Source: an uncultured Eubacteriales bacterium
GTDB lineage: Bacteria; Bacillota; Clostridia; Lachnospirales; Anaerotignaceae
Direction: 5' to 3'
Assembly: GCA_949743655.1 (NCBI GenBank)
Contig: CATJUP010000112.1
Coordinates: 1 to 42,597, forward strand
Length of the DNA stretch: 42,597 bases
Shown here: positions 21,364 to 27,469 of the stretch, one piece after another
Position numbering within the stretch: the stretch's first letter is position 1
Layout of the letters: every line of letters begins with the position of its first letter
Made by a program: the position numbers and the translations under genes
Notes under the pieces: model-generated
What the model was told of the DNA's origin: nothing
Seen by the model: only the letters and a program-made list of their open reading frames with translations
Databases searched by the model: none

Positions 21364-24153
21364 ATGAAAAGTTTTTTTGAGAGAGTAAAAGACGTTGTTA
21401 CAAGCCGTATATTTATTATGTCAACAGGTGTGTTTATATTGTTTGCTGCTATATCAGTAAGACTTTTTTCATTGCAAATTGTAAAGGGCGAGACATATCA
21501 ACAAGAGCTTAAAACAAGCATAATGCAAAAAATATCAATACCAGCGTCAAGGGGAATGATATATGACAGATATGGAAGACCTTTAGCTATAAATGAAGCC
21601 GCTTTCTCTATAAAATATGATGACAGTGTTACAGCGCCATTATCAAATAGAACACAAACAGCGCTTGATTTTGTTTACTCAAGAGGACAAGACATATATG
21701 ATAATTTACTTATAACTGACTCGATGCCAAAAAAATTTAAATTTTCATGGTCTGATGACGAGAAGAGATGGAAACAAAGTATAGGTCTTAGGTCTAAACA
21801 GCTTAAATATTCTGCTGATGAGACATATGATTATTTAATTGAAAAATATAATATACCTATGGGACTTAGCAAAGAGGATGAGAGAAAACTTATAAACATT
21901 TTAATAAACTGCTCGGACAAAAACTTAATGATACTTTCGTTAATAGATATACTTGACAAAAATGGTGAAACAATAATTGATGATATTCCAATATCTCAAA
22001 CACAGCCTTATGAGTTTTTGTTTGACGGAAGTGACACTAAAGAGTTTGAATGGAAAAAAAGCGTTGGAATGAAAGAAGAGCAATATGAACTTAACGCTGA
22101 AGAGACATTAAAATACTTAGTTGAATTTTTTGATGTGCCAGATAATATATCAGACGAATTAAAAAGAAAAGTTGTGGCTATACGCTACTCACTTTATTTA
22201 ATGCGTTACAGAAAGTATCAGCCTATAACAGTGGCTATAAACATAAAAGACGAGACAGTGGCAGCAGTAGAGGAGAGCAATAATAAATTTCCTGGGGTTA
22301 CTATATATACCGACTCGCTTAGGGATTACCCTGACGGCAAGTATTTTTCAAATATAATAGGATATATAGGCAGAATAACAGACACAGAATATGAAAATTA
22401 TGCTGAACATGGTTATTCACAAAATGACATAATAGGTAAAAATGGTATTGAGTCTATATATGAACTGGAGCTTAGAGGAGCTGATGGACAAAGTCTTGTG
22501 GAAGTTGATGCGTCTGGAAGGCGAATAAATACAATAGAAACGCAAGCGCCTGTTTCAGGAAGTAACATATTTCTTACTATAGACAAAAAATTGCAAAAAG
22601 CAGCTTATGATTATTTGGAAGCCGCTTTAGCTGATACAATTATAAGTAAACTTACATCAAAAGACCCAAAGGACTTGCCTATAACACAAAAAGAGCTTTT
22701 CTCATCAATGATAAACTGTAACTCAATATCGGTTAAAAAAATATTTAATACAAACAAAGAAATATCGCAATATATAAAAAATATTGTGCTCGAAAATTAT
22801 CCTAATTTAGATTTAGCCGAAAAAGACGCTTTGGATAAAGCTAAATTTATAATAACATCGGCTATAGAAGATGGTACTATTACAAATAGGGATATGGTGT
22901 TATTACTTATTGAGCAGGAAATAATAACGGCTGATGATGAGTATAAAGAAAAAATAGAGTCAGGTCGTGTAACACCTCTTTCTGTAATAATAGAAAAACT
23001 TAGAAGCTGCGAGCTTCATCCATATCAAACAAATCTTGACCCATGTACTGGCTCGGTTGTAGTGTCAAATGTAAATACAGGAGAGGTATTGGCACTTGTA
23101 ACATATCCTTCTTACGATAACAGCAGACTTGTTAATAATTTTGACTCAGAATATTACAATCAGCTTATAAACGACCCTACATCGCCGCTTGTAAACAGAC
23201 CTTTGAAGCAAAAAAAGGCGCCAGGCTCAACTTTTAAAATGGTTACATCAATAGCAGGTCTTGAGACAGGCGTTATAAAACCGTCTACAATTATAAGAGA
23301 TTTAGGACAGTACACAAAAGCGGGAAGTCCTTATCCTAAGTGCTGGATATATCCTGGCGGTACTCATAGAGACATTAATGTGTCTCATGCGCTTGAGGTT
23401 TCATGTAATTACTTTTTTTATGAAACATCTTTTAGATTGGGTAATAGTCAAGAAAATTCGACATTAGAGGGAATAGAGACACTTAAAAAATATATGAGAG
23501 CGTTTGGTCTTGACAGTGTTACAGGTATAGAGCTTGGTGAAGCAGAGCCAAATATAGCCTCGCCTGAATATAAAGAGGCATCTATAAAATGGCAAAATCC
23601 AGATGCTACAACAAGCCAAACAGCGTGGAATGACGGCGACACAATAAGAGCCGCTATAGGTCAATCTGTAAACAACTATACAGCGGCTGTATTAGCTAAA
23701 TATATATCAACATTGGCTAATGGGGGTACAAGATACACATTTCATGTTATAGACAAAGTTGAAAGTGCTAATGGCAAGGTTATTGAGAAAAAACTTCCTG
23801 TTGTTGAGGAAAAATTAGATATAGCGCAAGAAAACTTAGACGCTGTTTATGAGGGTATGTTGCTTGTTACAAGCGGTGAGAGAGGCTCGTTAAGGCGGGT
23901 TTTTAAAGATTTTCCTGTTAAAGTGGCGGCTAAGTCTGGTACGGCGGAAGAAAATAAGTCAAGAAGCTCTCACTCAAATTTTGTGTGTTTTGCACCTTAC
24001 GACCAGCCGCAAATAGCTATAGCTATAATGATACCTTTCGGTGAGTCATCAACATCGGCGGCGGCTGTTGTAGGAAGAAATATTGTTGGGGAGTACATGG
24101 GGCTTAATTATGAGCCTGAAAACAGCTATATGAATATTGAGTTGGCAGAGTAG
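21364..24153 (+). CDS. Penicillin-binding protein 2 (class B transpeptidase, elongasome)
   Basis: 'KKAPGSTFKMVTSIAGLE', 'VSCNYFFYE', 'AAKSGTAEE' (SxxK, SxN, KSGT); between mreD and minC. Confidence 0.95.
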   Translation: MKSFFERVKDVVTSRIFIMSTGVFILFAAISVRLFSLQIVKGETYQQELKTSIMQKISIPASRGMIYDRYGRPLAINEAAFSIKYDDSVTAPLSNRTQTALDFVYSRGQDIYDNLLITDSMPKKFKFSWSDDEKRWKQSIGLRSKQLKYSADETYDYLIEKYNIPMGLSKEDERKLINILINCSDKNLMILSLIDILDKNGETIIDDIPISQTQPYEFLFDGSDTKEFEWKKSVGMKEEQYELNAEETLKYLVEFFDVPDNISDELKRKVVAIRYSLYLMRYRKYQPITVAINIKDETVAAVEESNNKFPGVTIYTDSLRDYPDGKYFSNIIGYIGRITDTEYENYAEHGYSQNDIIGKNGIESIYELELRGADGQSLVEVDASGRRINTIETQAPVSGSNIFLTIDKKLQKAAYDYLEAALADTIISKLTSKDPKDLPITQKELFSSMINCNSISVKKIFNTNKEISQYIKNIVLENYPNLDLAEKDALDKAKFIITSAIEDGTITNRDMVLLLIEQEIITADDEYKEKIESGRVTPLSVIIEKLRSCELHPYQTNLDPCTGSVVVSNVNTGEVLALVTYPSYDNSRLVNNFDSEYYNQLINDPTSPLVNRPLKQKKAPGSTFKMVTSIAGLETGVIKPSTIIRDLGQYTKAGSPYPKCWIYPGGTHRDINVSHALEVSCNYFFYETSFRLGNSQENSTLEGIETLKKYMRAFGLDSVTGIELGEAEPNIASPEYKEASIKWQNPDATTSQTAWNDGDTIRAAIGQSVNNYTAAVLAKYISTLANGGTRYTFHVIDKVESANGKVIEKKLPVVEEKLDIAQENLDAVYEGMLLVTSGERGSLRRVFKDFPVKVAAKSGTAEENKSRSSHSNFVCFAPYDQPQIAIAIMIPFGESSTSAAAVVGRNIVGEYMGLNYEPENSYMNIELAE

Positions 24154-24243
24154 AATTATGTGCTAATGCCCAAACGTGGCAAAAGCTATTATGTTTGGAC
24201 AAAGCCCAGTGTTTAAACATTTTTATTTAATGGAGGAGCTTAA

Positions 24244-24786
24244 ATGATTACATTTGTAACCGGAAATGAAAAACCAAAAGCAAACGATATTAATGCTGAC
24301 GATGAAATAGACGAGATTGGATTGAGTCAAAAAGGTCAGCCAGTTGAAAAAATTATTGAACAGGCAGAAGCTGAGGCAGAGTTAAAAGCAGATACATCTA
24401 AAAAAGAAGTAGAAAGTAAAATAGAAAATATTGTTGAAAACAGTTTTTCTATAGATAGGCACACAACAAAATTTCATAAAGGAAATTTAAGAAATGGTAT
24501 GTCAATAGAATTTGACGGAAGTATAGTTATATTAGGTGATGTAAACCCAGGAGCTGAAGTAAGAGCTACTGGCAATATACTTATATTAGGTGCTCTTAAA
24601 GGTGTAGTTCACGCAGGATGTAAAGGAGACAGCAACGCTTTTGTTTTTGCACTTAGCCTTGTGCCTGTTCAACTTAGAATAGGTGGAATAATAACCCGTT
24701 TCCCTGATGGCGATTCAAAAACAAACCGAAAACCAGAATATGCTTATGTTGAGGACGGAAAAATATATGTATCCGAGTTTCAATAA
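24244..24786 (+). CDS. minC: Septum site-determining protein MinC, C-terminal beta-helix domain only
   Basis: 'HKGNLRNGMSIEFDGSIVILGDVNPGAEVRATGNILILGALKGVVHAG'; N-terminal ~70 aa acidic linker. Confidence 0.88.
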   Translation: MITFVTGNEKPKANDINADDEIDEIGLSQKGQPVEKIIEQAEAEAELKADTSKKEVESKIENIVENSFSIDRHTTKFHKGNLRNGMSIEFDGSIVILGDVNPGAEVRATGNILILGALKGVVHAGCKGDSNAFVFALSLVPVQLRIGGIITRFPDGDSKTNRKPEYAYVEDGKIYVSEFQ

Positions 24787-24928
24787 TTTGCGTTATAAGC
24801 GCTGTTAATGTATTTTATGACGCTATTTTGTGGCATGTTATGAATAATGCTGTAAAATTATAAGGTATTTTGAAAATTAATTTTAAAATTTGCTAAAAAA
24901 AACTAATGCAAAATATCTACATTTTTGT

Positions 24929-24953
24929 TAATATATACTTAAAGTATATATTA
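24929..24953. promoter_or_regulatory. 25-bp palindrome TAATATATACTT-A-AAGTATATATTA in the minC-minD spacer
   Basis: Perfect 12-bp inverted repeat with 1-nt centre. Confidence 0.5.
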
Positions 24954-25130
24954 TATTAAGTTTGTGAGGTATTATTCCAATTTTAATTAATTTAAGTAAG
25001 CAACATTTTAGCGAAATATATTTACTATCGCGATTAGGTTTTTAGTTTAACACAAAAGTGTGTAAAAGCGCTAAAACGTAGCATTTAACAAAAAAGTTTA
25101 TAATAGCCATAAGTTTAGGGAGGATAAAAA

Positions 25131-25928
25131 ATGGGAGAAGTAATAGTTATAACAAGCGGTAAAGGCGGCGTTGGCAAAACAACAACCACCGCTAATTTAG
25201 GCTGTGGTCTTGCGATTTCCGGTAAAAAAGTAGCTCTTGTGGATGCTGATATTGGTCTTAGAAATCTTGATGTTGTTATGGGACTTGAAAATAGAATAGT
25301 ATATGACCTTGTTGATGTTGTTGAAGGGAAATGCAGACTTAAACAAGCGCTTATAAAAGATAAACGCTATGCTGGACTTTATCTTCTTCCGGCTGCCCAA
25401 ACAAGAGATAAAGACGCGGTATCGCCTGAACAAATGCGTAAACTGTGTGATAATCTTAAAGAGGATGAGTTTGATTACATAATAATAGATTGTCCGGCGG
25501 GAATAGAACAAGGGTTTAAAAATGCCATAGCGGGAGCTGACCGCGCGCTTGTGGTTACTACACCAGAAGTGTCAGCGGTGAGAGACGCTGACAGAATAAT
25601 TGGTTTGCTTGAGGCAAATGAGCTTATAAATCCATCACTTATACTTAACCGTGTAAGACCAGATATGGTTGACAGAGGCGACATGATGAGTATGGATGAT
25701 GTAAATGAGATATTGGCAGTGGATATAATAGGTGTTGTGCCTGATGATGAATCAATAGTTATACAAACAAATAAAGGTGAACCGGCGGTTACTGTAGAAA
25801 GCTCTAAAGCTGGACAGGCTTACCGTAATATTACGCAAAGAATATTGGGTAATGATGTACCTTTAATGGTATTTGAGGCGGAAAACTCGTTTATAGATAA
25901 ACTTAAAAAATTATTCCGCAAGGGCTGA
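25131..25928 (+). CDS. minD: Septum site-determining ATPase MinD
   Basis: 'VITSGKGGVGKTTTTANLG', 'LVDADIGLRNLDVVMGLE', amphipathic C-term 'FIDKLKKLFRKG'. Confidence 0.97.
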   Translation: MGEVIVITSGKGGVGKTTTTANLGCGLAISGKKVALVDADIGLRNLDVVMGLENRIVYDLVDVVEGKCRLKQALIKDKRYAGLYLLPAAQTRDKDAVSPEQMRKLCDNLKEDEFDYIIIDCPAGIEQGFKNAIAGADRALVVTTPEVSAVRDADRIIGLLEANELINPSLILNRVRPDMVDRGDMMSMDDVNEILAVDIIGVVPDDESIVIQTNKGEPAVTVESSKAGQAYRNITQRILGNDVPLMVFEAENSFIDKLKKLFRKG

Positions 25929-25976: not shown

Positions 25977-26261
25977 ATGTTTGATTTTTTAGGTTTTTTT
26001 AAAGGCAAAGAGCCTACTTCGGGTTCTGTAGCAAAAGACAGACTTAAACTTGTGCTTGTTCATGACCGTGTAAATTGCTCGTCACAGGTTTTGGAGATGC
26101 TTAAAGATGATATAATAAAAGTTATATCAAACTATATGGAAATAGATAGAGCCGAGCTTGATATTAATATAACTCAAACACAGGCTGAGGATAATTCGGG
26201 AACAGTACCGGTATTGTACGCTAACATACCTATAAAAAGTATGCGCCGAAACTCAAACTAA
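25977..26261 (+). CDS. minE: Cell division topological specificity factor MinE
   Basis: 'AKDRLKLVLVHDRVNCSSQVLEMLKDDIIKVISNYMEID'. Confidence 0.95.
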   Translation: MFDFLGFFKGKEPTSGSVAKDRLKLVLVHDRVNCSSQVLEMLKDDIIKVISNYMEIDRAELDINITQTQAEDNSGTVPVLYANIPIKSMRRNSN

Positions 26262-26298: not shown

Positions 26299-26329
26299 TT
26301 TTAATTCTGTTTAATAATTGGAGAGAAAA

Positions 26330-27469
26330 ATGAATTTAAAAAAATTAAAAAATATTGATTGGTGGCTTGTGTGTGCCGCTATAATACTTTCGGTATTTGG
26401 TATAATATGTATAGGTTCTGCAACGCATATAAATTTGGGTGAAAGCCGCTCAATGTACTACTCTCAAATGGTATGGGTAAGTATTGGAGTAGTTATAATG
26501 CTTGTTGTGGTATATGTAAATATCGATTTTTTTGCTAATTTTTATAAATATATATATTTTTTTAATATAGCGCTGCTTTTAGCCGTACTTTTAATAGGAC
26601 GCTCTGTAAACGGCGCTAAAAGGTGGATATATTTTGGACCTATTGGAATACAGCCTTCTGAGTTTTCAAAAATTATAATGCTCTTTTGCTTGGCAAAAGT
26701 TATTGACAAAAACAGGCAAAGGATTAATAATAAAAGTGTATTGATTAAAATTTGCCTCTATACGCTTATACCTATACTGCTTATACAAAGACAGCCGTCT
26801 TTGTCTGCAAGTCTTGTTATTTTAGCTATATTAGCGTGTGAATTGTTTGTGGCTAAAATTGATTATAAATATATAATGGGATTAATAATAATATCACTTC
26901 CTATTGTGTTATTTATCGCTTGGGATGTATTGCGTGAAGACCCTATTATAATTGATAAAATACTAAGACCACATCAAATAACGCGAATAATAACATTTTT
27001 AAAACCAGACGCGAGCTCTGATAATTATTATCAGACACTTAAATCAATAAGTGCTATAGGCTCTGGTCAGCTTATGGGCAAAGGGCTTTATGAGGGAACT
27101 TTAAATCAATTAAGCTATTTACCTGAACCATATAATGATTTTATATTTTCGGTAATAGGCGAGGAATTTGGTTTTATAGGATGTGTGGGTGTTTTAGCAT
27201 TACAGTTTTTTATAGTTTTTAGATGTATGTTGATAGCCATGAATTGCCGCGACAGTTTTCTTCAATTAGCGGCAACGGGAGTAGCTGGTATGATAGCGTT
27301 TCAGACATTTGTAAACACAGGCGTAGCTACAGGTATACTGCCTAATACAGGTATGTCTTTGCCTTTTGTAAGCTATGGCGGAAGTTCTATGTGGGCTAAT
27401 ATGGCGTCTATAGGACTTGTGCTTAATATAGGTCTTAAACGCACAAAATCTTTATTTGAGGAGGTTTGA
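26330..27469 (+). CDS. rodA: RodA/FtsW family SEDS glycosyltransferase
   Basis: 'KRWIYFGPIGIQPSEFSKI', 'YLPEPYNDFIFSVIGEEFGFIG', 'LPFVSYGGSSM'; ATG 26330 preferred by RBS spacing. Confidence 0.93.
   Translation: MNLKKLKNIDWWLVCAAIILSVFGIICIGSATHINLGESRSMYYSQMVWVSIGVVIMLVVVYVNIDFFANFYKYIYFFNIALLLAVLLIGRSVNGAKRWIYFGPIGIQPSEFSKIIMLFCLAKVIDKNRQRINNKSVLIKICLYTLIPILLIQRQPSLSASLVILAILACELFVAKIDYKYIMGLIIISLPIVLFIAWDVLREDPIIIDKILRPHQITRIITFLKPDASSDNYYQTLKSISAIGSGQLMGKGLYEGTLNQLSYLPEPYNDFIFSVIGEEFGFIGCVGVLALQFFIVFRCMLIAMNCRDSFLQLAATGVAGMIAFQTFVNTGVATGILPNTGMSLPFVSYGGSSMWANMASIGLVLNIGLKRTKSLFEEV

Follow-up and report, generated by a model that had tools for sequence, protein, structure and literature searches.

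How does a bacterium place its division septum when the only MinC it encodes lacks the domain that attacks FtsZ? In well-studied systems both MinC domains inhibit FtsZ, the C-terminal one (MinC_C) inhibiting division only together with MinD (PMC6803595, PMC4117426); in the MinC/MinD complex MinC_C binds the FtsZ tail, after which the N-terminal domain (MinC_N) attacks the filament (PMC4117426, PMC6803595). MinD binds at the RSGQ site of MinC_C, and the two likely make up the FtsZ-tail site together (PMC6803595). The window analysed here, a 42,597-nucleotide stretch from an uncultured Eubacteriales bacterium, contains a mreBCD-pbp2-minCDE-rodA operon (Table 1) whose minC was originally predicted, from the letters alone, to encode MinC_C without MinC_N, with MinD and MinE intact.

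Table 1. Coordinates of the minC gene, its parts and its neighbours in the window
Feature	Position	Strand	Remarks
PBP2 (mrdA), upstream neighbour	21364..24153	+	
minC, C-domain-only form, 180 aa	24244..24786	+	MinC_C E 8.9e-32; MinC_N not detected
M-I-T-F-V-T-x-N, residues 1-8	24244..24267	+	conserved; possible remnant of last MinC_N strand
Conserved motif EIGLSQKGQPVEKIIEQAEAE, residues 25-45	24316..24378	+	in each of the 15 short MinCs and in no other family protein
Charged linker of variable sequence, residues 46-67, helix predicted	24379..24444	+	identity between rows, dN/dS counts, AF2 helix 34-67
MinC_C beta-helix, residues 78-176	24475..24771	+	Pfam, AF2, structure matches
RSGQ site (MinD and FtsZ tail), here RNGM, residues 83-86	24490..24501	+	Q replaced in short MinCs
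minD, intact	25131..25928	+	VRDADR (D154-equivalent) kept
minE, intact	25977..26261	+	
rodA, downstream neighbour	26318..27469	+	

The open reading frame (ORF) begins with an ATG behind a good to strong Shine-Dalgarno sequence, TTTAATGGAGGAGC, and an in-frame TAA (24241-24243) lies directly upstream of it. The PBP2 stop is at 24153, bearing out the 90-nt gap that the original prediction had taken to leave no room for a lost N-terminus. MinC_C is the sole Pfam domain of the product, and the ORF is thus a MinC that retains only the C-terminal beta-helix domain. It scores 101.8 bits with the TIGR01222 minC model (cut-off 95.25), the best stretch beginning at model position 82; because the cut-off is passed despite this late start, automatic annotation assigns the MinC name and conceals the domain loss. 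An identity as FapA, a beta-solenoid protein, was rejected (29.2 bits against a cut-off of 31, over 32 residues only).

The prediction would have been undermined by a MinC_N fold in residues 1-75. The AlphaFold2 model shows no such fold there; residues 1-28 are disordered, residues 34-67 form a helix, and a confident beta-helix starts at about residue 75. Foldseek searches with this model retrieved, as the nearest solved structures, the MinC C domains in 4v02, 6riq, 5xdm and 1hf2, the beta-helix resembling A. aeolicus MinC of the MinC:MinD complex (4v02, TMt 0.83) and, again over the C domain only, the P. aeruginosa MinCD filament (6riq). Nor is MinC_N encoded elsewhere, as far as profile searches reach: across the whole source genome PF05209 (MinC_N) gave no match at E<=10, and a MinC_N profile built from relatives gave none at E<=1, while the latter recovered MinC_N in 15 of 15 searched long-MinC genomes of the same family at E<=1.5e-35. 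Used on 13 other short-MinC genomes, this profile matched nothing apart from one chance hit. That hit, a candidate stand-alone MinC_N in genome G017 (E 0.029), was discarded, as it sits in an unrelated 97-aa ORF. No second protein with MinC_N or MinC_C exceeds the cut-off in the source genome, which makes the short protein its sole MinC; in some genomes long ORFs, probably of the FapA type, give weak MinC_C matches below the cut-off.

A survey of 58 Anaerotignaceae-like genomes recovered a MinC_C protein above the cut-off in 51. In 15 of the genomes, belonging to genera g1, g4, g5, g10, g13 and g15 (G000-G005, G008, G009, G014, G017, G019, G023, G027, G031 and G081), the sole MinC is a short one of 167-217 aa, with starts chosen by Shine-Dalgarno sequence; several of these genomes are 97-100% complete. 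They are relatives of Anaerotignum; Candidatus Neoanaerotignum tabaqchaliae, Ca. N. galli and Lachnospiraceae bacterium NSJ-143 are among the named records with matching contigs. Where MinC was read in members of the other genera, the protein has about 210-220 aa and a typical MinC_N at its start (e.g. MNQENYVIFKGTKDG). A tree of the FtsZ globular domain, the linker left out, unites the short-MinC genomes in a single clade (100/100) with a full-MinC sister group, g9+g14 (97/90). Since this clade is nested among full-MinC relatives, MinC_N was lost once, in its common ancestor. The clade-wide loss of MinC_N from a sole MinC, with a conserved peptide in its place, is real.

The same pattern, a MinC match without the N-terminal part of the model in a short ORF, was sought among 196 genomes of the order with completeness of at least 90%, and was found in this clade and in genome G037, whereas some other partial matches lie in ORFs whose length would accommodate an N domain that has diverged. 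The G037 protein (L143:1941-2525, 195 aa) has an internal deletion in MinC_N that fuses the first strand to the second half of the domain, and is an independent erosion of MinC_N. Among the papers searched, none describes a natural MinC without MinC_N.

The region in front of the beta-helix had been described as a charged linker of about 75 residues. This holds for approximately residues 46-67, which alone behave as a free linker; residues 1-45 carry a conserved motif that the original prediction did not notice, just as it missed the substituted Q at the RSGQ site and the FtsZ change considered below. The short MinCs share the pattern M-I-T-F ... E-I-G-L-T-Q-x-G-x-P-V-x-x-I-I-E-x-A-E, in which M1, I2, F4, G31, I37 and A41 never vary and E39 and E42 are almost as constant. 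(One alignment, A2, has a single wrong residue, N to K, in one of its ten rows, too small an error to affect the matches; another, A3, is a smaller set read straight from DNA.) A profile of residues 1-45, run on the 58 family genomes, recovered every one of the 15 short MinCs, at E 4.7e-25 to 8.5e-10, but no other family protein below E 0.06. Pairwise counts over few codons gave, for L002/L003, a dN of 0 against a dS of 0.77 in the motif and 0.17 against 0.23 in the linker, and for L008/L011, 0.04 against 0.62 and 0.15 against 0.29, respectively. With dN far below dS, the N-terminal motif is under purifying selection, whereas in the linker dN is near dS in close pairs and identity between rows is 0.24. 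Flexibly tethered as it is, this conserved peptide has the look of a docking motif. The start of the protein, MITFVTDNE, finds its best counterpart in the final MinC_N strand of the relatives (ITFVKTENNE), and 6 of 120 shuffles did as well; derivation of the MITF start from that strand is suggestive only.

When compared with MinC of E. coli, B. subtilis and T. maritima (TIGR01222; PF05209 plus PF03775), the clade protein has in common the MinC_C beta-helix, the operon with minD and minE, the R-x-G of the RSGQ site, and MinD and MinE as partners; it differs in the absence of MinC_N, the replacement of the RSGQ-site Q, and the addition of the conserved N-terminal motif and variable linker. This Q is present in 16 of 16 full-length relatives and in none of 14 short MinCs, which have M, V, T, R or F there. 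Such a change need not abolish binding, because P. aeruginosa MinC, with RGGM at this site, nevertheless forms MinCD filaments (6riq). MinD and MinE are intact, as predicted (TIGR01968, 411.8 bits; PF03776, E=2e-26), and MinD is nearly identical between the short- and full-MinC groups, with the helix-7 Asp of VRDADR kept in both. In the source operon minC is genetically linked to minD and minE, and the order mreBCD-pbp2-minCDE-rodA is conserved in the named loci of the clade (locus L032 stops after minD).

Two other features of the operon may be recorded. The 344-nt gap between minC and minD (24787-25130) contains, in the stretch scanned, 11 promoter-like matches where 4.4 would be expected, as well as a perfect AT palindrome (TAATATATACTT/AAGTATATATTA); promoter and repeat scans of the gap yielded only these consensus matches and the palindrome, and minDE may have a promoter of their own there. 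PBP2 has 929 aa, the pbp2 ORFs of several related operons spanning about 830-980 aa, and its PBP_dimer match covers residues 59-391 for a model of 180 positions, as if the dimerisation domain had taken up insertions.

We then consider FtsZ. Every clade genome in which FtsZ was found, the source genome included, retains its C-terminal tail, EGEIHIPSFLRKK, in the form I-P-x-F-[LI] (IPSFL or IPSFI, for example). In addition, a peptide at the start of the C-terminal linker, right after the globular domain (KGLPPKSLRSAFDF; KGLPPKSLRxxF, in general form [KRN]-G-L-P-P-x-x-[LMI]-[RK] or slightly drifted), occurs in 14 of 15 short-MinC genomes, a count that takes in drifted forms (the source genome, GLPS in G019 and a last-place M in G017), as against 0 of 40 FtsZs from other genera; the FtsZ of the fifteenth, G023, has an eroded remnant. 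The loci compared include L115-L129, L144, L149, L152 and L153. This motif co-occurs with the short MinC, and the MinC and FtsZ changes fall on one branch, so that they amount to a single co-occurrence rather than many. A phylogeny-corrected distance test detected no covariation between the MinC and FtsZ motifs (partial r -0.15 to 0.03); the source-genome FtsZ has drifted to KAMAPKGLK while its MinC motif has hardly changed, and in a low-confidence AlphaFold2 model of FtsZ the linker motif is not docked. A relaxed MinC_N footprint on FtsZ was also looked for, with no sign of one: of the positions known for resistance to MinC_N, most have not changed or vary as much in one group as in the other (T111, I245, D287 and V310 are identical), and the clade-specific substitutions are scattered. 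The numbering is that of B. subtilis FtsZ, in a sequence that agrees with the 2vam alignment.

Related Min systems place this case in context. Desulfotomaculales (e.g. L064, L077, L101) likewise have a MinC_C-only MinC in a mreBCD-pbp2-minCDE-rodA operon, but they also encode a full MinC elsewhere, keep RSGQ, and have neither the N-terminal motif nor the FtsZ linker motif. A MinC_N gene exceeded the cut-off in 15 of 15 genomes tested, and in the six loci fetched (L203-L208) the full MinC lies beside a NUDIX hydrolase gene, with galT in four of them. Their short MinC was therefore rejected as an instance of the same case: a C-domain-only operonic MinC arose elsewhere too, though not as the sole MinC, and a division of labour between the two MinCs is possible. 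Isolated E. coli MinC_C with MinD has the same domain composition as the clade protein but is an engineered fragment without a replacement motif; it inhibits division via the FtsZ tail, according to the work of Shiomi and Margolin (2007) and of Shen and Lutkenhaus (2009) as cited in PMC6803595 and PMC4117426. Min systems without MinC, among them MinDE waves (PMC9262947, PMC6158289) and the natural MinC-less operons described next, would, if functional, likewise do without MinC_N; the short-MinC clade differs in keeping minC, under selection. In the order survey MinC was found in 152 of the 196 genomes, MinE in 168, and MinE without MinC in 28, counts from profile searches in which TIGR01222 may miss divergent MinCs. 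Inspected loci (L141, L142, L209-L216) lack minC between pbp2 and minD and keep minDE in G010, G021, G032, G045, G155, G159, G183, G204, G216 and G222; the sequences indicate that minC has been lost repeatedly with MinDE retained.

The reading that we tentatively prefer, though we would stop somewhat short of calling it probable, is that a C-domain-only MinC recruited by MinD acts on the FtsZ tail, with the short motif as a replacement prong. In the clade ancestor the operonic, single-copy minC lost MinC_N, perhaps via a deletion that left the translation start near the last MinC_N strand. MinC_C with MinD would bind the conserved C-terminal peptide of FtsZ, displace membrane anchors and lateral contacts, and thereby antagonise polar Z rings, while the N-terminal short linear motif on its flexible linker would stand in for the lost second prong by docking on a division partner, the new FtsZ linker motif being the first candidate. 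We infer MinD binding, FtsZ-tail binding and division inhibition by the short MinC, as well as the partner of the motif; with MinC_N gone, tail binding is the step of the established mechanism for which the necessary pieces are still present. In favour of this reading are the match of the beta-helix to MinCD structures, the near-constant MinD, the FtsZ tail kept throughout, the selection on the N-terminal motif, the FtsZ linker motif, and the published action of MinC_C with MinD. The possible rewiring of the Min system that the original prediction raised would fit both the conserved peptide at the N-terminus and the linker motif gained by FtsZ. Against action on the tail, the Q replacement could mean weaker binding of MinD or of the tail, overproduced E. 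coli MinC_C makes cells only slightly longer (PMC5548801), and the association with the FtsZ motif is a single-branch one, without covariation and with a drifted motif in the source genome. That the MinC motif itself binds KGLPPKSLRxxF at the base of the FtsZ linker, replacing a folded FtsZ-binding domain, appears unlikely; if true, a domain-domain contact in the core division-site machinery would have given way to a peptide-peptide one.

The docking-like peptide also speaks for a rival view, in which MinC has become a MinD-driven cargo adaptor without direct action on FtsZ and the motif recruits some other protein, be it a different division inhibitor, a protein that anchors FtsZ, or a cell-wall factor from the linked mre/rodA operon. 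That minC always sits inside the mre-pbp2...rodA operon at the named loci of the clade, and that its motif does not covary with that of FtsZ, is further evidence for this view, but the clade FtsZ gained a conserved linker motif and retained its tail, and no candidate partner emerged; we consider it a serious alternative, if rather an unlikely one. A course towards loss, with MinDE alone positioning FtsZ or other membrane proteins, is suggested by at least ten genomes of the order with minDE and a clean absence of minC, including same-family g3 and g6, by the 28 genomes noted above, and by MinDE waves that pattern FtsA-FtsZ in vitro without MinC (PMC9262947). Strong purifying selection on the C domain and the N-terminal motif across six genera, and maintenance of the short form since the clade ancestor, make such degeneration distinctly improbable. 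The prediction had also offered that MinC might act mainly as a MinD copolymer. The nearest structures are indeed MinCD complexes and filaments, but studies cited in PMC6803595 and PMC5548801 question the need for copolymers and nothing specific to the clade points to them. Of its interpretation, the domain loss with MinD and MinE retained stands, while a scaffold role is not favoured and strikes us as very improbable. Finally, the source genome is 90.8% complete and in 192 contigs, and a truncated gene model, a frameshift or a missing contig might conceal MinC_N. The in-frame stop ahead of the ATG and the mere 90 nt to pbp2 oppose this, and the comparative data refute it: relatives outside the clade do have a full MinC, but all 15 genomes of the clade, several of them 97-100% complete, have the same short structure and no MinC_N. 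We give such an artefact almost no credence.

The breaking of FtsZ filaments by MinC is attributed to MinC_N. A sole MinC without this domain, with MinDE intact and the remainder of the protein under selection, is a natural test of the share that the C domain and the FtsZ tail have in Min function. One order offers the full series of full MinC, C-domain MinC and no MinC, which allows an in vivo test of whether MinDE can position division without the classical inhibitor. In the short-MinC gut bacteria related to Anaerotignum, division-site placement probably differs from the textbook scheme.
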